A program made the translations under genes and the position numbers. Source: a virus. From it: DNA of 64,000 nt. The notes below the pieces were generated by a model. The model ran no database searches and was not told the DNA's origin. It was given only the letters and a program-made list of their open reading frames with translations. Positions 8,218 to 63,560 of the stretch are shown here, piece by piece (the stretch's first letter is position 1; each line of letters opens with the position of its first letter). Location: positions 1 through 64,000 of IMG/VR virus record IMGVR_UViG_3300024307_000003, one strand, 5' to 3'.

Positions 8218-8226
8218 TACTCCTCC

Positions 8227-9966
8227 TTAGAAGTTCAGTTTATGTTTCTCCACCCACTCATCTTTATCCCATAACGTATGTGTTTCATTGTCGTAATAGA
8301 AGTCTCCTGCCGGTCCAGTGAACCCTGACCATCGACACTTACTAATAACCGAGTGGGTTGTATTACGAACAATCTCATCCTCAGCATACTTATTACGCAT
8401 AGCTAAGAAGTTAAGATCAGCACTCTTGAAGATTGTAGAAGAGCCTGAGAAATCTTCTTCTGTTATAAATCCACCAGCGCTTCCAGCTTCTGAATTGTTT
8501 CCAGATTTCCTGACGTGATTAATATTGATGAATGTTACGTTATGACTTTTCTTTAAACTCTTCTGCCACTTCATAAACATGGATTGTTCTTCGTTTGTCA
8601 ATCCATCAAGAATATCCTGCAAAGGATCAAGAACTATCACTTTACAATCACACGCAATTACCAACTCCTCAACCGTCTTCTGAAGGTCTTTAAGACTACC
8701 ATCCCGATCATCAACAAGATACCATCTTGGACTACCATCTTCTTTATGAAACAGGATGGCTGCTTCTGCTGCAACTGCTGGTGAAGTAAGATACTTATGT
8801 TTCTCTTCTGGTGAAGTTATCAAAGATATTTTCTTGTGCAGGTGTCGTGAGAGCATCACTTCACCATACTCTTCCTTGTCCAACTCCATAGATACAACAC
8901 CGATCATATATGGGCTATTGAACACCCACCAATAGATCATTTCATTCACTAAAGAAGTCTTACCAATACCACTGGCTGCACCAAAATTAACAATCTTACC
9001 TAACGGAATACCTCCTGATGTCTTTTCATTCAGCCCCTTCATGAAAGGAGGGAACTGCATCTTAGGAGCAAGAGACTTGTCAATTATTCCCTGCATCAGT
9101 TGGTCGCTACCCACTACACCCATTGGGGTATAAGACTTTGCAGCATAAAAAGCAGAAACAAATTGCCTTTCTCGTCCTTGTGTTAAATATTCATTGGGGT
9201 CTTTAAGTTCCATATCCATAATAAAGACCTTTCCTTTAGGTAACACCTTAACACACACTTCTGTTGCTTTCTTCCCTGCTTCATCGTTATCCAAACACAG
9301 AACAATCTTATCAAAACGATTAATCCAATCATATTGTGATTTCAGTTGTTTCCATGTTCCGCTTTCTCCGAGAATAGAAGATACGACAGGGATAGGACCG
9401 TAACTCTGATCTTTGTCTCTGCGTTTAATATCGTCATATAACATTTGAAATGCAGAATGTTGGTCTATCTCCCCACCAACAATTAAAAGATATTTACTTG
9501 GAGAGTTTTTAAATTTGTGTTGTCCGAACAGATCACAATCCTGCCCAACACCATTCTCTACCAACTTTAAAGGATTACCAAACGTCTTTGGAGGCTTGCG
9601 ACATTTGTACCCAGACAACGCATAGTTGATAGTGCAAGCATAATATTGTCCAAGCAAATCCCCTGTGTTTGCATCATACATGTGACGTGTTCCAAACGTC
9701 CTGTATGTTTCATCCCTGATCCCTCTGAAGCCTCTCCCTTCGTATGTGCTATTCTCCTTGAACACATTTAATTCTTGTTCTGTTAGCAAATCTCCTCCTT
9801 CAAACACGATTTCAGAATCTTCTTCCTCCTGTTTAGATTTGATTGTGTAGCCACAAGCAAAACAGAAAGCGCCCCCGTCCTCATAAAGAGCTAGATTGTT
9901 TTTACTTTTGTCTAACCCTCGGGAGGCACATTTAGGGCACTGTACTTTAGATACTACTAGTCCCAT
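8227..9966 (-). CDS. Primase-helicase, T7 gp4-like
   Basis: The 579-aa protein has a zinc-binding N-terminus (C10, C13, C35, C38), a TOPRIM primase centre (VGGEID with E167; LCLDNDEAG with D226 and D228) and a RecA/DnaB-type helicase half with Walker A GAASGIGKT (329-337) and Walker B VIVLDPLQD. This matches the bifunctional gp4 type that unwinds DNA ahead of the fork and lays RNA primers. ATG at 9966 has GGAGGA upstream. Its natural partner, the polymerase, follows on the same strand, separated by the HNH insertion. Confidence 0.93.
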   Translation of the reverse strand: MGLVVSKVQCPKCASRGLDKSKNNLALYEDGGAFCFACGYTIKSKQEEEDSEIVFEGGDLLTEQELNVFKENSTYEGRGFRGIRDETYRTFGTRHMYDANTGDLLGQYYACTINYALSGYKCRKPPKTFGNPLKLVENGVGQDCDLFGQHKFKNSPSKYLLIVGGEIDQHSAFQMLYDDIKRRDKDQSYGPIPVVSSILGESGTWKQLKSQYDWINRFDKIVLCLDNDEAGKKATEVCVKVLPKGKVFIMDMELKDPNEYLTQGRERQFVSAFYAAKSYTPMGVVGSDQLMQGIIDKSLAPKMQFPPFMKGLNEKTSGGIPLGKIVNFGAASGIGKTSLVNEMIYWWVFNSPYMIGVVSMELDKEEYGEVMLSRHLHKKISLITSPEEKHKYLTSPAVAAEAAILFHKEDGSPRWYLVDDRDGSLKDLQKTVEELVIACDCKVIVLDPLQDILDGLTNEEQSMFMKWQKSLKKSHNVTFININHVRKSGNNSEAGSAGGFITEEDFSGSSTIFKSADLNFLAMRNKYAEDEIVRNTTHSVISKCRWSGFTGPAGDFYYDNETHTLWDKDEWVEKHKLNF

Positions 9967-25993: not shown

Positions 25994-26085
25994 GGACGTA
26001 ATACAGGTATTGGCTTTCCTGTGCCCAACTCATAATTGGTTCTCTAATTGCTAGAGTCTCGGTTCGATTCCGAGTGCGTCCACCA
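25994..26085 (+). tRNA. tRNA-like gene, anticodon CAT (Met), atypical
   Basis: Acceptor GGACGTA pairs with TGCGTCC, followed by A and an encoded CCA. The T arm (CTCGG, TTCGATT, CCGAG) is perfect. The anticodon loop CTCATAA is like that of elongator tRNA-Met. Oddities: bases 8-9 are AT, the D-arm position holds an unusual hairpin (CAGG/CCTG), the top anticodon pair is C-T, and a 15-nt hairpin fills the variable region, where a Met tRNA should have 5 nt. Confidence 0.6.
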
Positions 26086-26090
26086 TAAAC

Positions 26091-26570
26091 ATGAAAATAG
26101 AACTTGAAGAACCATTTAAAAGTAAATGGAAATTTGGCTATCTAGTAGTAAATAAAGAGCCAAGAAGAAATGTAATTCTGTTTAATACTGATAAAGATAG
26201 AACTACAGTATCTTACGCTAGATATTTAATGTCTGTACACTTAGAAAGAGAGCTAAGAAAAGATGAACACGTTGACCACATTAATGGTGACAGGTTAGAC
26301 GATAGGTTAGAAAATTACCAAATATTGTCTCCTGATGATAACACAAGAAAAGGAATGAAAAGCAACAATATTAAGAAAGCAATGGTTGAAATCGAGTGTG
26401 GAAATTGTGGCAGAATATTCTCTAAACCTAGAAACTGTACCCATTTAGTTATTAAAACAAAGAAATCAACTTATTGTTCTAGGCAATGTTCTGGTAGACG
26501 TGGAAATAAGGGACAATCGAAAATAATAAAAGAATATATGCTAGGTTTTTGGGAAACAAACGAGGGCTAA
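26091..26570 (+). CDS. HNH endonuclease with extra zinc knuckles
   Basis: The 159-aa protein has HNH core residues (DEHVDHINGDRLDDRLENYQ) and a C-terminal four-cysteine element (CGNCGRIF, then YCSRQC). Typical of free-standing phage homing endonucleases. Its ATG lies only 5 nt after the CCA of the preceding tRNA, with no ribosome site, so translation must begin on an unprocessed transcript or at a later start. It sits between two tRNA genes, a common landing place for such genes. Confidence 0.75.
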   Translation: MKIELEEPFKSKWKFGYLVVNKEPRRNVILFNTDKDRTTVSYARYLMSVHLERELRKDEHVDHINGDRLDDRLENYQILSPDDNTRKGMKSNNIKKAMVEIECGNCGRIFSKPRNCTHLVIKTKKSTYCSRQCSGRRGNKGQSKIIKEYMLGFWETNEG

Positions 26571-26606
26571 AGCATGGTTAGATTCCATGATGGCCTACCA
26601 AACAAC

Positions 26607-26683
26607 GCTCTGGTATCCCAATAGGCAGAGGAACAAAATTTAAAATTTTGTAAGTGTGGATTCGAATTCCACCCAGAGCACCA
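26607..26683 (+). tRNA. tRNA with TAA anticodon, short variable loop
   Basis: Acceptor GCTCTGG/CCAGAGC, T arm GTGGA/TCCAC and anticodon stem CAAAA/TTTTG are all perfect, and CCA is encoded. The loop TTTAAAA gives anticodon TAA, which reads UUA (Leu). Bacterial Leu tRNAs normally have a long variable arm, but here it is only 5 nt (TAAGT). The identity is therefore uncertain. Confidence 0.75.
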
Positions 26684-50544: not shown

Positions 50545-50572
50545 ATAAAGAAAAGGAGGGATTGCTCCCTCC
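50545..50572 (-). terminator. Intrinsic terminator after the major capsid gene
   Basis: On the minus strand GGAGGGA and TCCCTCC form a perfect 7-bp stem with a 4-nt loop, followed by TTTTCTTT. It would keep capsid transcripts abundant relative to the fibre genes downstream. Confidence 0.8.
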
Positions 50573-58944: not shown

Positions 58945-59913
58945 TTAAATTCCTATACACATAACCGAATACTGGCCTTTAGCCTCTGCTTCGGAATAGA
59001 GGGTTATTGTGAAACCTGTTCCAGCAACAATGTCGCTTACAACAGGTCTGATATTCAGAAGATACATTTCGTCTGGATCAACTCCGGAGGGGGTTAGAAC
59101 ATTACAAACAACTTCGCTGCTAACACCTACCCAAGATTGTCCTGTTACTATTGTCTGCGCTTTGTCCGTAAAGGAACTACCAAAATCACATACAACGTTT
59201 ACACTACTACCACTTACACCAGCTGGACCAGTAGCGCCCGTAGCGCCTGTTGCACCAGTCTCTCCTTGTATCCCCTGAACGCCTTGAATGCCCTGAATAC
59301 CTTGTATTCCCTGCGGACCCTGTAAAGAAGATAATGTTACGATGTTGGTCCACGAAACATCTCCGACATAACGCCACTGAATGTATGTACCATTACTTTG
59401 AAGCTCTACTTCTCTACCATCAACTCCATTTGTACCTGCCGGACCTTGTATTCCTTGAGCACCAGAAGGCCCTTGAGGGCCAACTTCGCCTTGTATACCT
59501 TGGGGTCCGGTGTTACCCTGAATCCCTTGTGAACCTTGCGGTCCTACTTCTCCCTGTATTCCCTGTATTCCTTGTGGGCCTGTAATCTCTGAAAGAAGAA
59601 TTAAGTTTGTCCAGCTAACATCCCCAACATATCTCCACTGGACGTGTGTAGCAGACTTTTGTAATTCAACTTCCCTTCCATCTACTCCATCACTTCCGTC
59701 AACCCCTGCTGCGCCTGTATCTCCTGTTGGTCCAACCGAACCTGTGGGACCAGTGGCTCCAGTAGGGCCTATAGGCCCTCTTATACCTTGTTGGATGGAG
59801 GAGACAACACCTCCAGCGTCAACTCCAAAGGAGAGTGTCCCACTATCCCCTTCCTCAAGAAACACTTTCGTGTCAATTGGAGACGATTGGAGAATCTTTG
59901 TGACAATACTCAC
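58945..59913 (-). CDS. Collagen-like fibre protein
   Basis: The 322-aa protein has two Gly-X-Y collagen-like blocks (about 43-80 and 112-166) and a third (about 200-238), rich in GPQGIQG triplets. Two copies of a short module (DGREVELQ, then QWRYVGDVSWTNI) lie between them. A C-terminal beta domain (SVNVVCDFGSSFTDKAQ) would be the trimer tip. Such proteins form long thin fibres. Confidence 0.8.
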   Translation of the reverse strand: MSIVTKILQSSPIDTKVFLEEGDSGTLSFGVDAGGVVSSIQQGIRGPIGPTGATGPTGSVGPTGDTGAAGVDGSDGVDGREVELQKSATHVQWRYVGDVSWTNLILLSEITGPQGIQGIQGEVGPQGSQGIQGNTGPQGIQGEVGPQGPSGAQGIQGPAGTNGVDGREVELQSNGTYIQWRYVGDVSWTNIVTLSSLQGPQGIQGIQGIQGVQGIQGETGATGATGATGPAGVSGSSVNVVCDFGSSFTDKAQTIVTGQSWVGVSSEVVCNVLTPSGVDPDEMYLLNIRPVVSDIVAGTGFTITLYSEAEAKGQYSVMCIGI

Positions 59914-60221
59914 TGTGTAACACTCCGAAGAACATTGATTTCAAATGTCTCTGTGTATACGACTTCTGTAGAGGGGAGGGTGTAACGAATGTCACAATAG
60001 AGAATACATATGGGCCAATCATCTGTAGAGCTGTCTGAGAGAGTGAAAATCCCGTTAACGTTGTCTGTACGTGTGACAGTTAATTGTGAAACAAGTTTGT
60101 TACTCTTGTCTCTAATTTGTGCTGCAATTGTCCAGCTTGCAAAATCGGATGGAACTACTCCATCGGATTTAACGGATATATCACGGGAGAAGGTGGCTCC
60201 ACGTTTGTGTGAAATCTGCAT
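59910..60221 (-). CDS. Small fibre-attachment protein (BppU-like fold)
   Basis: The 103-aa protein (MQISHKRGATFSRDISV) has the beta pattern of small attachment domains (ASWTIAAQIRDKSNKLV; ILYCDIRYTLPS). It overlaps the collagen-like gene by 4 nt and probably anchors it to the virion. First gene of the late operon. Confidence 0.6.
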   Translation of the reverse strand: MQISHKRGATFSRDISVKSDGVVPSDFASWTIAAQIRDKSNKLVSQLTVTRTDNVNGIFTLSDSSTDDWPICILYCDIRYTLPSTEVVYTETFEINVLRSVTQ

Positions 60222-60233
60222 GTTCTCTCCGAA

Positions 60234-60263
60234 AGAAAAAAGAAGAGCTACATTTGCAGCTCT
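60234..60263 (-). terminator. Intrinsic terminator just before the late operon
   Basis: On the minus strand AGAGCT and AGCTCT (60263-60244) form a stem, followed by TCTTTTTTCTTTC. It lies directly before the ribosome site of the first late gene. Another small stem (GGAGA/TCTCC at 60270-60284) precedes it. Confidence 0.55.
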
Positions 60264-60334
60264 GAGGTAGGAGAGCTAATCTCCTATGAGGAGAAAGCTT
60301 ATCGTTCTTGTTATTGTTCAATGCTTTCTTCGAA

Positions 60335-60373
60335 ACAAAGAAAAGCCCGCAACTAGAAATCTCTAGGCGGGCT
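60335..60373 (-). terminator. Intrinsic terminator of the tRNA/ncRNA unit
   Basis: On the minus strand AGCCCGC (60373-60367) pairs with GCGGGCT (60350-60344), then TTTTCTTTGTTT. This strong stem with a U-rich tail is the likely 3' end of the transcript from the promoter at 62203. Confidence 0.7.
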
Positions 60374-60511
60374 GAAGGCTCTATAACGAGCACCAATAAA
60401 AACGGATACGTTAATGTTGGCTATGTCTGCACGGCTGGCACGGCTGTGCTTGTTGTTATTTCCCAAGAGGAGGGCAATGAAATAGTTGTGGGTAGTCAGG
60501 CCGAACTTCAT
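60353..60511 (-). CDS. Possible small protein, 52 aa
   Basis: A frame starting MKFGLTTHNYFIALLLGN has AGGAG 6 nt upstream and ends inside the terminator stem. The site is good, but the frame lies in a structured non-coding stretch and its tail is formed by the terminator. It may be a leader peptide or chance. Confidence 0.3.
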   Translation of the reverse strand: MKFGLTTHNYFIALLLGNNNKHSRASRADIANINVSVFIGARYRAFSPPRDF

Positions 60512-61356
60512 TTCTGACTCCTGCGACGTTAAGGGTCTGCTTGCAGGCTTTCTCCCTTCGCTTCTACGTGTGGTATCGGATCACCAATTTTACCCACACA
60601 AATACATTCTCCTAACTAGTATTCAGCCGCTAGGAACCTCCCGGCAACTGTGGAAAATGTATTTATATAGGCACTAGATTTACCAACATGCTCTTCGTGG
60701 AAACCCACTGTAATATATCCTATGATCTACTCTGTTCTTTCACCAACCACAAAAGTTAACGAACTACTGAGAGTTAGGATATATTACGGTGAGGGCCTGT
60801 TGATTTCCCTGTTATCAGGCTCAGGGAAGATGCTGGAGGAAATACAGCAAGCATCTCAATTCACTGAATATCTGGATTCTTCCAGTTTAACATTTATTGA
60901 TTATGCAGAGTTATACGCTGCAAATAACAATTCTTATAAACCAGAGGATTTTCTTTCCAACCCCTTGTTGGAAAGCTTATTCCTCACAACCGCAAGGATT
61001 TCTAATTTGTGCAGAACTGGATAACAATCTTTTTTCTCTTGACACGCCATCAATATTTCTATTCATTTCGTGGAATCGGGATTGCTATCTCATTCTCTGT
61101 CGGCTTTCCTGCTCTTCCAACATCATCTTAGGCGCGACCTAAGCACCATCGAATTTACGTTAGGCGTTGTTGTGTTTCAGCAAGCCTAGTCCCGGCAGGC
61201 CACGCGCATAGCGTCCGGTCTTCTCTACTATCATTGATCACTGCATCAACACAAAGCTGTGATTTTCGAGTAGTCTCTACGTAAAACTTTTAATATTCTG
61301 GTGGCGTTTTATGACGCGAATATCAGCAGACGCTGCCCGTCGCACGGGGCCATAAT
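60374..61356 (-). ncRNA. Candidate large structured RNA downstream of the tRNAs
   Basis: About 980 nt without a convincing gene but packed with perfect stems. Examples: AAATACATT/AATGTATTT (60600-60664), a 13-bp inverted repeat (60710-60722 with 60775-60787), TTCCCTG/CAGGGAA (near 60810-60828), CTGGA/TCCAG (near 60872), CTTTCCAAC/GTTGGAAAG (60953-60975), CTTAGG/CCTAAG (near 61127-61143), TAGGC/GCCTA (near 61160-61189), ATATTC/GAATAT (61293-61323) and CCCGT/ACGGG (near 61337). It lies between the tRNA cluster and a terminator. The strand is inferred from those; base-pairing alone does not settle it. Confidence 0.45.
60706..60791. repeat. Long inverted repeat
   Basis: GTAATATATCCTA (60710-60722) and TAGGATATATTAC (60775-60787) are perfect inverses. 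Pairing extends to 17 bp with one G-T, and inner pairs ACTCT/AGAGT and GTTC/GAAC extend the stem inward. It is the longest hairpin seen in the window. Confidence 0.75.
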
Positions 61357-61431
61357 TGGTGTTCGTGCAGAGAATTGAACTCTGATTAACAGGTTGAAAA
61401 CCTGCTGTCCTCACCATTGGACGACACGAAC
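61357..61431 (-). tRNA. tRNA-Glu (TTC)
   Basis: Acceptor GTTCGTG/CACGAAC, D arm GTCC/GGAC, anticodon loop TTTTCAA (TTC) and T arm CAGAG/CTCTG. CCA is encoded. A complete tRNA; the last of the minus-strand cluster. Confidence 0.92.
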
Positions 61432-61437
61432 AATATT

Positions 61438-61511
61438 TGGAGCGGGAAGAGGGGTTCGAACCCTCGCTATCAACTTGGAAGGATGAAGTGCTACCATTAC
61501 ACCATTCCCGC
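61438..61511 (-). tRNA. tRNA-Gly (TCC)
   Basis: Acceptor GCGGGAA/TTCCCGC, D arm GTGT/GCAC, loop CTTCCAA (TCC), T arm GAGGG/CCCTC and encoded CCA. The anticodon stem TCATC/GTTGA has one T-T mismatch. Otherwise standard. Confidence 0.88.
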
Positions 61512-61516
61512 AAATT

Positions 61517-61592
61517 TGGTGCTGCCATCAGGACTCGAACCTGAAACCTACCGCTTACGAAACGGTTGCTCTACCAGTTGAGCTACAGCAGC
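61517..61592 (-). tRNA. tRNA-Thr (CGT)
   Basis: Acceptor GCTGCTG/TGGCAGC (with two G-T pairs), D arm GCTC/GAGC, loop TTCGTAA (CGT), T arm TCAGG/CCTGA and encoded CCA. Confidence 0.9.
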
Positions 61593-61600
61593 ATACTTCG

Positions 61601-61726
61601 TGGGGGAGGCTGGAGTCGAACCAGCAAGCCAGATAAACTACTCACAAGGCTTAAAGCCGGCTGCCTTGTTTTCACTCACGAGACTACCCCTCTCTGGGGC
61701 TGCGTATCCCATTCCGCCACTCCCCC
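61601..61726 (-). tRNA. tRNA-like gene of 126 nt with enlarged middle
   Basis: Acceptor GGGGGAG/CTCCCCC, D arm GCG/CGC with a Leu/Ser-type D loop, and T arm GCTGG/CCAGC are intact. The middle is about 35-40 nt too long and contains two related segments (CTCGTGAGTGA and CTTGTGAGTAG). A stem ACAAGG/CCTTGT encloses CTTTAAG, which would give anticodon TTA if it were the real loop. No CCA is encoded. Probably a rearranged type II tRNA gene or pseudogene. Confidence 0.5.
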
Positions 61727-61732
61727 GTAATT

Positions 61733-61809
61733 TGGTCGGAGATACAGGATTTGAACCTGTGACATTTTGCTCCCAAAGCAAACGCGCTACCAGACTGCGC
61801 TAATCTCCA
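61733..61809 (-). tRNA. tRNA-Pro (TGG)
   Basis: Acceptor TGGAGAT/ATCTCCG (first pair T-G), D arm GCGC/GCGC, anticodon stem TTTGC/GCAAA with loop TTTGGGA (TGG), T arm ACAGG/CCTGT and encoded CCA. First tRNA of the minus-strand cluster. Confidence 0.92.
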
Positions 61810-62168
61810 ATAAACGATCCGGACACCACTTGGAAACAACAACGTTGTCCCTCGGCCCGCCTTGGCGCGAGCACAGGGAAGAGTATGAATCCTCCCTGCT
61901 GGGTAGCGCTCGATCTCATCCGGTGTTCCCTTTTCAGGGAGTCGCTACGTTCGTGTGTCCAGAAGGGGAGGAACTATGTTCCCACGAATCTTCTGGCACG
62001 CAATTGATTAATCTTAAAATGTGCCTACCCGAAGTTACCTTCCGTCTGCAAGCAACAAACTCCCTTGTCAGTTCAAGGGAAGGTAGGGCTTAAGTCATCA
62101 CCGGTATGGAGGCCGGGAGAGGTGTCCTCAGAAGATGGAACACATAATTAACAAACTTCCCTATTTGT
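61810..62168 (-). ncRNA. Structured non-coding leader of the tRNA unit
   Basis: No gene is seen between the promoter at 62203 and the first tRNA. Stems include CCCTTG/CAAGGG (62062-62079), TACCTTCC/GGAAGGTA around it, CAGGGA/TCCCTG (61874-61898) enclosed by CGAGC/GCTCG, and the competing GTAGCG/CGCTAC (61904-61948). The competing helices could allow two folds. Possibly the 5' part of the same large RNA as 60374-61356. Confidence 0.4.
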
Positions 62169-62174
62169 ATTTAC

Positions 62175-62203
62175 ATCCTAGCAGATTATTTTCTGTTTGT
62201 CAA
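62175..62203 (-). promoter_or_regulatory. Sigma70 promoter of the tRNA/ncRNA unit
   Basis: On the minus strand TTGACA (62203-62198) and TAGGAT (62180-62175) are 17 nt apart, with TGC just before the -10 (extended -10). Its sequence closely resembles the promoter at 63065-63093. Confidence 0.75.
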
Positions 62204-62219
62204 CACCCAATCTGAAATT

Positions 62220-62525
62220 TTATACAGCTACAGGGAAGCGTCTGAATTCGGCTACAACACCTTTCCCAACTTCCTGCTTACGCTCTTCTTCCCTGTTGGC
62301 AGGTTCGCCCATAAGCTTCTCAGCAGCTTGGGCGTACAGCCAATGCAGCTTCAGGATTTTATCCAGAATCCCAGCACGAGTAGCAGGATTAACCGCAGGA
62401 TCAAACGCCAGCTTCGACATGGCCTCGTAGGCAGGAACTGCGTCTTTGTTCACCAGATCCTGAAGCTCTGTGATATTGTCAAATGTCTTCTTGGCTGCTC
62501 TTACATTCTTGGATACATTAGCCAT
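62220..62525 (-). CDS. Hypothetical helical protein, 101 aa
   Basis: MANVSKNVRAAKKTFDNITEL, then NPATRAGILDKILKLHWLY and a charged C-terminus. It is small, helical and near the late operon, so a small terminase subunit is conceivable, but no DNA-binding motif is clear. Overlaps the upstream gene by 8 nt. Confidence 0.6.
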   Translation of the reverse strand: MANVSKNVRAAKKTFDNITELQDLVNKDAVPAYEAMSKLAFDPAVNPATRAGILDKILKLHWLYAQAAEKLMGEPANREEERKQEVGKGVVAEFRRFPVAV

Positions 62526-62820
62526 CTAATTCTTCTTCCTCTCCTGAATCTCTTAGGGCTTGTAGAACATTTTCTAATAGCTCTATCAACACCCATGTAT
62601 CTTGTGTATTGCTTTGGATCAGTTTGTAATTGCTATCATCTTGTAACACTGTAAGTCCTACAGTGGGTTTGAAGTCGTATTCGTTCCCCTCCTCGTCTCG
62701 GAGGTAGATAGCGTTCTCTTCAAGGGCTACTACTAAACTAGCTAGGTTGTTTAGGATGTTCTCTATCTCATCGGCAACAGGAGGAGAGGAACGTTTGAAC
62801 TCAAGAATCTTTCCAGACAT
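62518..62820 (-). CDS. Hypothetical protein, 100 aa
   Basis: Acidic protein (MSGKILEFKRSSPPVADEIEN) with a beta part in the middle and an acidic tail EEEELDG. First gene behind the promoter at 63065-63093. Function unknown. Confidence 0.6.
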   Translation of the reverse strand: MSGKILEFKRSSPPVADEIENILNNLASLVVALEENAIYLRDEEGNEYDFKPTVGLTVLQDDSNYKLIQSNTQDTWVLIELLENVLQALRDSGEEEELDG

Positions 62821-62978
62821 ACTACCAATCCTCTTGTTGTTTTAATCCAGATAAGTTAAAATCTAAAAGAAAGAAAAAGAACCAAAAAGAAAGAAAATAA
62901 CTAAATAAGTATATAATACTATAATCTATACATAGCTTTGTACTATACCTTGCTATACTATGCGTTGCTACTTCTTAA

Positions 62979-63050
62979 CCTACTAAGGAAACTCACTACG
63001 TTCGTTTCTATTCCTTGCTTAGGCGGACAATATCGTTTCACTCATTGTCC
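62979..63050. other. Two hairpins in the leader of the leftward operon
   Basis: CCTA-AAGGAA pairs with TTCCTT-TAGG (62979-63023), and GGACAAT pairs perfectly with ATTGTCC (63025-63050). Both would be at the very 5' end of the minus transcript starting near 63058. This is the position of cis-acting antitermination RNAs in some phages, but the fold is not otherwise recognised. Confidence 0.4.
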
Positions 63051-63064
63051 TGTTCAGTAGGACC

Positions 63065-63093
63065 ATTTTAGCAATAATTTTTTAGTTTGTCAA
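63065..63093 (-). promoter_or_regulatory. Sigma70 promoter (leftward)
   Basis: On the minus strand TTGACA (63093-63088) and TAAAAT (63070-63065) are 17 nt apart, with TGC before the -10. It leads to the genes at 62820 and 62525, and by read-through to the tRNA unit and late operon. Confidence 0.75.
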
Positions 63094-63186
63094 TACCTAA
63101 TTACTAATCTTTACAAAATTAATACTAATTAGTTACATTAGTGTATACTTTATTTACTAGTTGGATTAGGAAAAGATTCGTTAGCT

Positions 63187-63247
63187 GTAGACTCTACGCT
63201 TCGCTTCGTAGTCTACTTGAAGCTGTGTCCTAGTGAGTCGGACACAG
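63187..63247. other. Two strong hairpins between divergent promoters
   Basis: GTAGACT...ACG pairs with CGT-AGTCTAC (63187-63216, about 10 bp with a 2-nt bulge), and CTGTGTCC pairs perfectly with GGACACAG (63223-63247). No U-run follows on either strand. They lie between the leftward promoter at 63093 and the rightward promoter at 63321. Otherwise the 62821-63392 stretch is AT-rich and gene-free. Confidence 0.5.
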
Positions 63248-63320
63248 CGAATATAATATAATAATAAAGTAACTTAACTAATATCTTTGGTGTAAATCTC
63301 TTCTTCAAAGAAGAATTGTC

Positions 63321-63348
63321 TTGACTTTGTGTCAGAATCTGCTAAGAT
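63321..63348 (+). promoter_or_regulatory. Sigma70 promoter (rightward)
   Basis: TTGACT (63321-63326) and TAAGAT (63343-63348) are 16 nt apart with an extended TGC element. It drives the small genes from 63393 onward. Confidence 0.65.
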
Positions 63349-63392
63349 TTGAACATGGGAACTGTTTGTAAAACAAACTGAATGGAGGAATA

Positions 63393-63560
63393 ATGATCAG
63401 TTATTACATTGGTGTATTACAGGACTACCTATCCGAATTTGGACATTTCGTAAACTCCTGTGTTGACAGAATTCTGATGTGGGTGTTCAATGCAAAGACC
63501 CCTGACGCATTGTTCGGAAACATGATCGAATGGGTGGAGAGAACTATCGCATCTAACTAA
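63393..63560 (+). CDS. Hypothetical protein, 55 aa
   Basis: Starts behind GGAGGAATA and reads MISYYIGVLQDYLSEFGH. Amphipathic helices. First gene of a rightward run. Unknown function. Confidence 0.6.
   Translation: MISYYIGVLQDYLSEFGHFVNSCVDRILMWVFNAKTPDALFGNMIEWVERTIASN

Follow-up and report, generated by a model that had tools for sequence, protein, structure and literature searches.

A phage tRNA operon that may have grown into a large structured RNA, similar to GOLLD and ROOL in layout only

Introduction

What is a 1.8-kb stretch around a tRNA cluster doing in a phage genome that is ~85% coding? The question arose from a window of 64,000 bases (bases 1–64,000 of a virus record in IMG/VR that is 93,686 bases long). 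The DNA polymerase of this phage is nearest to those of Limnohabitans phage DC31, Curvibacter phage P26059A, Acinetobacter phage B9 and uncultured freshwater phages (53–59% identity in the alignment), and its terL and capsid protein have ~40% matches to contractile-tailed phages. An earlier note on this DNA described a non-coding unit around the tRNA genes and proposed that it might be a large ornate phage RNA, possibly GOLLD or ROOL. These two are phage RNAs that are found near tRNA islands and assemble into RNA cages (PMC12286853). The GOLLD and ROOL cages, whose use is a puzzle, raise the question of what leads phages to maintain such large non-coding RNAs next to their tRNA genes. Here, we propose, with a probability of about one half, that a phage tRNA operon has here grown into a large structured RNA, which would be similar to GOLLD and ROOL in layout only and whose function we infer.

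Results

Layout of the unit and its setting in the genome

The anatomy of the locus, together with its fold energies and the lack of a coding signal, bore out the 1.8-kb non-coding unit around the tRNA cluster. On the minus strand, its elements follow one another in the order promoter, leader, tRNA-Pro, tRNA-Leu-like element, tRNA-Thr, tRNA-Gly, tRNA-Glu, tail and terminator, so the promoter, the terminator and the five tRNA or tRNA-like genes that had been listed in the earlier note were all found (the latter as four good tRNAs and one tRNA-Leu-like element). The genes that flank the unit on either side are also on the minus strand; the gene before it finishes at 62220, and the gene after it begins at 60221. 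When these flanking genes (62220–62525 and 59910–60221) were tried as search anchors, no relatives were found. The minus strand is favored for the unit by the promoter, the terminators, the neighboring genes and slightly lower fold energies (−126.0 kcal/mol on the minus strand versus −115.9 kcal/mol on the plus strand for the leader, and −297.7 versus −288.8 kcal/mol for the tail).

The promoter (62175–62203, minus strand) is of the sigma-70 type, with the consensus-like arrangement TTGACA-17-TAGGAT, an extended −10 element (TG) and 10 of 12 matches, and similar promoters are found at the tRNA clusters of relatives. Promoter-like sites across the whole region are not above chance (9 versus 7.8 expected), and the strict promoter pattern occurs twice in the 64-kb window (0.93 expected). 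The other strict copy is located at 63093, upstream of neighboring minus-strand genes, and because the two copies have TTGACAAAC...TGCTANNAT in common, both of them are more believable than the near-chance count would suggest. Transcription from the promoter of the unit would start near 62168. At the other end, the intrinsic terminator that the earlier note had placed at 60373–60335 is present at 60344–60373 (minus strand), where the stem and the T-rich tail, AGCCCGC(...)GCGGGCT-TTTTC, can be read directly from the sequence. A second terminator (60244–60263, minus strand) was found beyond it.

Upstream of the unit, a divergent gap (62820–63393) holds the cumulative GC-skew minimum of the genome (~63,000), and this gap, which adjoins the tRNA unit, is a candidate replication origin.

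tRNA genes and a tRNA-Leu-like element

Four tRNA genes, all on the minus strand, were identified both by tRNA calls and by Rfam, with Rfam tRNA scores of 64–68 bits: tRNA-Pro (UGG; 61733–61809), tRNA-Thr (CGU; 61517–61592), tRNA-Gly (UCC; 61438–61511) and tRNA-Glu (UUC; 61357–61431). The element between tRNA-Pro and tRNA-Thr (61600–61726, minus strand) combines a tRNA acceptor stem of 7 bp with a D arm of the Leu type and a perfect T arm, and over the first 37 nt it matches tRNA-Leu genes of phages at 87%. It is 127 nt long versus ~87 nt in tRNA-Leu, and the ~40 extra nt are located between the D arm and the T arm. A normal cloverleaf with a 7-nt anticodon loop is not formed, and the element was not called in standard tRNA and Rfam searches. 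ARAGORN calls it only when permitted to insert a 35-nt 'intron', with an ochre-type UUA anticodon and a poor anticodon stem. Judged from these features, the element is probably a degenerate or unconventional tRNA-Leu. Elsewhere in the window (25994–26683, plus strand), a tRNA-Met and a tRNA-Leu flank a 159-codon HNH-like ORF; the tRNA-Met is a weak call with no Rfam tRNA match, and the tRNA-Leu has just 77 nt and no long variable arm.

Folding of the leader and tail

The tRNA genes are preceded by a non-coding structured 5′ leader of 365 nt (61810–62174, minus strand; ~359 nt past the putative start), which has a fold z of −3.0 and no coding signal, and they are followed by a non-coding structured 3′ tail of 983 nt (60374–61356, minus strand) with a fold z of −5.5. 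The folding excess of the tail over shuffles is −38.8 kcal/mol, compared with +9.9 to −30.4 kcal/mol for 20 other 983-nt windows, which makes it the most excess-stable among 21 ~1-kb windows of the genome. Windows of 200 nt within the region reach folding z values down to ~−4 (the genome background is −0.7 ± 1.1). The unit thus folds more stably than shuffles and the rest of the genome, an effect that is clear but not extreme.

The many perfect hairpins that were reported for the tail in the earlier note exist, and perfect Watson–Crick stems of at least 9 bp are enriched (3 versus 0.26 in shuffles, with a maximum of 2 in 100), but the effect is modest, as the count of stems of at least 8 bp (4 versus 1.02 in shuffles) is also reached in other 1-kb phage windows. 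Taken alone, the hairpin signal and the promoter signal are each modest. The tail contains a 13-bp perfect hairpin stem, GTAATATATCCTA/TAGGATATATTAC, with an inner helix (60706–60791, minus strand; stem search and predicted fold) and a predicted 22-bp imperfect hairpin, GCCTATATAAATACATTTTCC / GGAGAATGTATTTGTGTGGG (60591–60673, minus strand). When the leader is folded alone, the minimum free energy structure is predicted to contain a domain closed by GGACACC / GGTGTCC (61820–62128, minus strand).

In the predicted fold of the whole transcript, two nested leader–tail helices would enclose the tRNAs. In one of them, the 5′ arm (61816–61829, minus strand), located directly before tRNA-Pro, would pair with the 3′ arm in the tail (60570–60582, minus strand; model p 1.00). 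The chance of each such helix is ~2% in shuffled or unrelated sequence, and the same calculation on L178, a relative with a 115-codon ORF in its leader, gave an even longer leader–tail helix of 15 bp. For these two reasons, the helices were dropped as proof of an enclosing domain and are kept as a prediction only, and a leader–tail helix that encloses the tRNA cluster is a weak suggestion of the model, little above chance.

tRNA clusters upstream of terL in related phages

Relatives were compared by position with terL as the anchor (the terminases are 28–49% identical). In many of them, tRNAs share a strand with terL and precede it, as in the window, and promoters of 10–12 matches precede several of their clusters. 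Their non-coding leaders before the first tRNA measure 76–583 nt. The shortest, that of DC31, is closed by a 9-bp helix (TTCAACGTA/TACGTTGAA); the leaders of L136 and L207 have 161 and 432 nt, respectively, and the 583-nt leader of G005, which follows a promoter with 12/12 matches, has a z of −2.9. The fold z of the trailers is −4.8 in L178 and −3.6 in G005, and it reaches −8.3 in L207, where a 420-nt non-coding trailer with very stable long hairpins follows tRNA-Gly upstream of terL (L207:6579–6999). The sequences of these leaders and trailers are unrelated to those of the window, so folded RNA surroundings of terL-linked tRNA clusters recur and their sequences do not. The unit of the window is the largest non-coding example among the relatives examined.

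Two further observations were made in these genomes. The non-coding leaders before the first tRNA can be aligned among L183, L185 and L186, and the long terminal hairpin of the leader keeps its pairing despite a changed sequence (GTTTTAGAGACGA/TCGTCTCTAAAAC in L185 versus GTTTTAGAAGGCA/TGCCTCCTAAAAC in L183). In L136, a group I intron (8223–8455; Rfam RF00028, 99.7 bits) is located inside the terL match.

The folding data and the comparison with relatives bear on the main competing explanation, in which an ordinary tRNA operon carries inert spacer: the leader would be its untranslated 5′ part, the tail would be leftover DNA, rearranged or too decayed to be recognized, with no RNA function, and the tail hairpins would be by-products of composition or terminators. 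tRNA islands are often sites of insertion and loss, no homologue was found for the leader or tail (see below), the tail's stems of at least 8 bp are no commoner than in some coding windows, and the closest relatives, DC31 and G006, get by with short spacers at their tRNAs. However, the tail ranks first in excess stability among the 21 stretches compared, its fold z is −5.5, nearly 1 kb of free DNA would be costly in so densely coding a genome, and the trailers of several relatives are unusually folded as well. Moreover, no trace of decay was found: a decayed gene in the tail was rejected from its read-through frames, and decayed tRNAs were rejected because an Rfam search down to E=10 contained none in the tail. 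We therefore rank a large tRNA-associated RNA, favored but unproven, ahead of inert spacer, which we regard as a real but lesser possibility.

Coding potential

The statement of the earlier note that the region holds no convincing gene was upheld. Clear protein homology of its frames, which that note had named as evidence against a non-coding unit, was searched for in Pfam and PHROGs; none of the ORFs of the unit had a match in either collection, and no family was matched by the stop-read-through frames (all six for the tail and the three minus-strand frames for the leader). A single PHROGs match of the read-through frames (E=0.093), with no significant stretch, was ignored. The codon scores of the ORFs in the region are at the level of shadow ORFs or lower, bar two weak cases.

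These two ORFs are the basis of an explanation in which the tail is partly coding and hides small genes. The better candidate is a 52-codon ORF (60353–60511, minus strand) with a good ribosome site (AGGAG) and a weakly positive codon score of +5.2 bits, but it overruns into the terminator stem; it is a possible small gene. The other, less certain candidate is a 100-codon ORF (60722–61024, plus strand), whose codon score exceeds that of most shadow ORFs but falls to −4.7 bits in a second test. It has no ribosome site and is oriented against the operon, and scans with peptide patterns revealed no relative of it in IMG/VR or GTDB genomes. With neither ORF matched in Pfam or PHROGs, we consider hidden genes an unlikely explanation of the tail.

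Searches for GOLLD, ROOL and other homologues

At gathering thresholds, only the tRNAs of the region were detected with Rfam. A cmscan search of the region (1–2 kb, permissive filters) contained no match to GOLLD or ROOL up to E=10; there was no covariance-model match to GOLLD (RF02032; 416 positions, gathering score of 150 bits), with no conserved 3′ core detected, and none to ROOL (RF03087; 574 positions, gathering score of 99.1 bits). Neither RNA was found in family searches of the whole record and ~90 related records. As these family searches had no positive control above the cut-off (phage K, the intended control, gave nothing), the negative result rests on the cmscan of the region, on which membership of GOLLD or ROOL was rejected. 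The assignment to one of these two classes that the earlier note had considered possible was therefore not borne out.

A very divergent GOLLD or ROOL that has kept the layout of a structured 5′ part, linker tRNAs and a large 3′ domain, and has drifted past the Rfam models, would fit published GOLLD RNAs, in which the linker that joins the variable 5′ part to the 3′ domain sometimes holds tRNAs (PMC12286853). However, the 3′ region of GOLLD is described as universally conserved (PMC12286853), and with both models silent up to E=10 such an origin is very improbable. Least probable of all is that the unit acts as DNA, as a replication origin or packaging site with inverted repeats that mimic RNA hairpins. 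Both terL and the cumulative GC-skew minimum are close by, but the minimum coincides with a switch in gene orientation and with the divergent gap outside the unit, and no iterons or strong direct repeats are present in 60200–62250.

Homologues of the leader and tail were searched for by blastn against GenBank phages and plasmids, in whole related IMG/VR records, by nhmmer and word-7 blastn across every retrieved locus, and by pattern scans (pseudo-ORF peptides) of IMG/VR and GTDB genomes, and none were found. As judged by sequence, the unit is an orphan among the collections searched. The large ornate phage RNA of the earlier note is thus plausible from the anatomy, the fold energy and the non-coding character of the unit but unproven, as it has no homologue in these collections.

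A conserved element in sister phages

An all-against-all comparison of the tRNA regions of relatives revealed a conserved, covarying element of ~90 nt, termed R1, with the consensus GAAATGG-NNN-GACG-N′N′N′-CCTnAAGYCYTCGG ... CGGRGCA (a GACG-loop hairpin and a CGGRGCA partner). A scan of IMG/VR gave 40 stretches, 19 of them with a fully paired stem, and almost all of these 19 are located at most a few hundred nt from tRNA genes. Across 13 distinct sequences, two helices that were picked out by eye show pairing in 100% of cells, and they carry 15 double-sided changes versus 3.6 in shuffles and far fewer when slid. The sites include L185:5675–5765, L186:5944–6039, L190:2069–2187 and L207:6353–6412; R1 is also present in L214, L218, L219, L220, L222, L226, L230, L238, L239 and others, and a covariance model added L180 and probably L144. 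R1 sits in the tRNA operons of phages that are uncultured and belong, for the most part, to the terL clade of the window phage. R1 is absent from Rfam 15, its strict pattern was not found in GTDB genomes, and GenBank phages contained no convincing match. R1 appears to represent a new family of small phage RNAs. In the window, R1 is absent (the best score, 8.8 bits, is off the unit at 50548), and it was rejected as the core of the window's RNA.

Discussion

If the unit is a tRNA operon that has grown into a large structured RNA, one long, mostly non-coding minus-strand transcript would run from the sigma-70-type promoter, from ~62168 to 60340. It would comprise the structured leader of ~360 nt, the tRNAs with the tRNA-Leu-like element and the structured tail of ~980 nt, and the intrinsic terminator would end it. 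Host RNases would release the tRNAs by cutting, and what stays behind would be the leader, stable and structured, and above all the tail as a large RNA, produced in the same burst as the tRNAs. By analogy with the GOLLD and ROOL cages, the tail may serve in lytic infection as a stable RNA that possibly assembles with itself. Transcription, processing and selection on the fold are the steps that we infer here.

A more far-reaching and distinctly tentative proposal is that a new class of giant phage RNA, of which the unit would be the first known member, shares neither sequence nor fold with GOLLD, ROOL and OLE. In this class, a ~1.8-kb transcript would fold around its tRNAs through leader–tail helices and leave an RNA of ~1 kb after tRNA release. 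If this were true, and given that sister phages have leaders and trailers that are folded but unrelated, large structural RNAs would have to arise again and again in terL-linked tRNA operons. A further unrelated RNA at such a site would suggest that the site itself, where tRNAs are released during lytic infection, creates selection for large structured RNAs, and it would offer a third system, besides GOLLD and ROOL, in which to ask about their role.

Among known systems, the tRNA operons of the same clade (DC31, G005, G006, L207, L185 and L186) resemble the unit in position and strand, and several of them also have a sigma-70 promoter and a non-coding leader; the unit differs from them in its 983-nt tail, which is the longest non-coding trailer among those examined. 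GOLLD (RF02032) is a large phage or prophage RNA by tRNA islands, with a transcript of several hundred nt whose level goes up in lysis and which forms a multimeric cage. Here, four tRNAs are located between leader and tail, but the unit differs in having no match to the GOLLD model up to E=10 and no detected conserved 3′ core. ROOL (RF03087) is a large non-coding phage RNA that is often near tRNA islands (PMC12286853), whereas the unit has its tRNAs inside and does not match the ROOL model. Two further cases are non-coding RNAs from lytic phages, each with ~1 kb of ORF-poor space and no Rfam family, as in the window: the ~0.8-kb non-coding RNA that is the most abundant transcript of ICP1 (PMC7567579), a phage whose terL is a distant relative of that of the window (44% over the aligned parts), and the lncRNAs of Herelleviridae, which, like the unit, are near tRNAs (PMC10383478). 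Both are backed by RNA-seq (PMC7567579, PMC10383478), which sets them apart from the unit described here.
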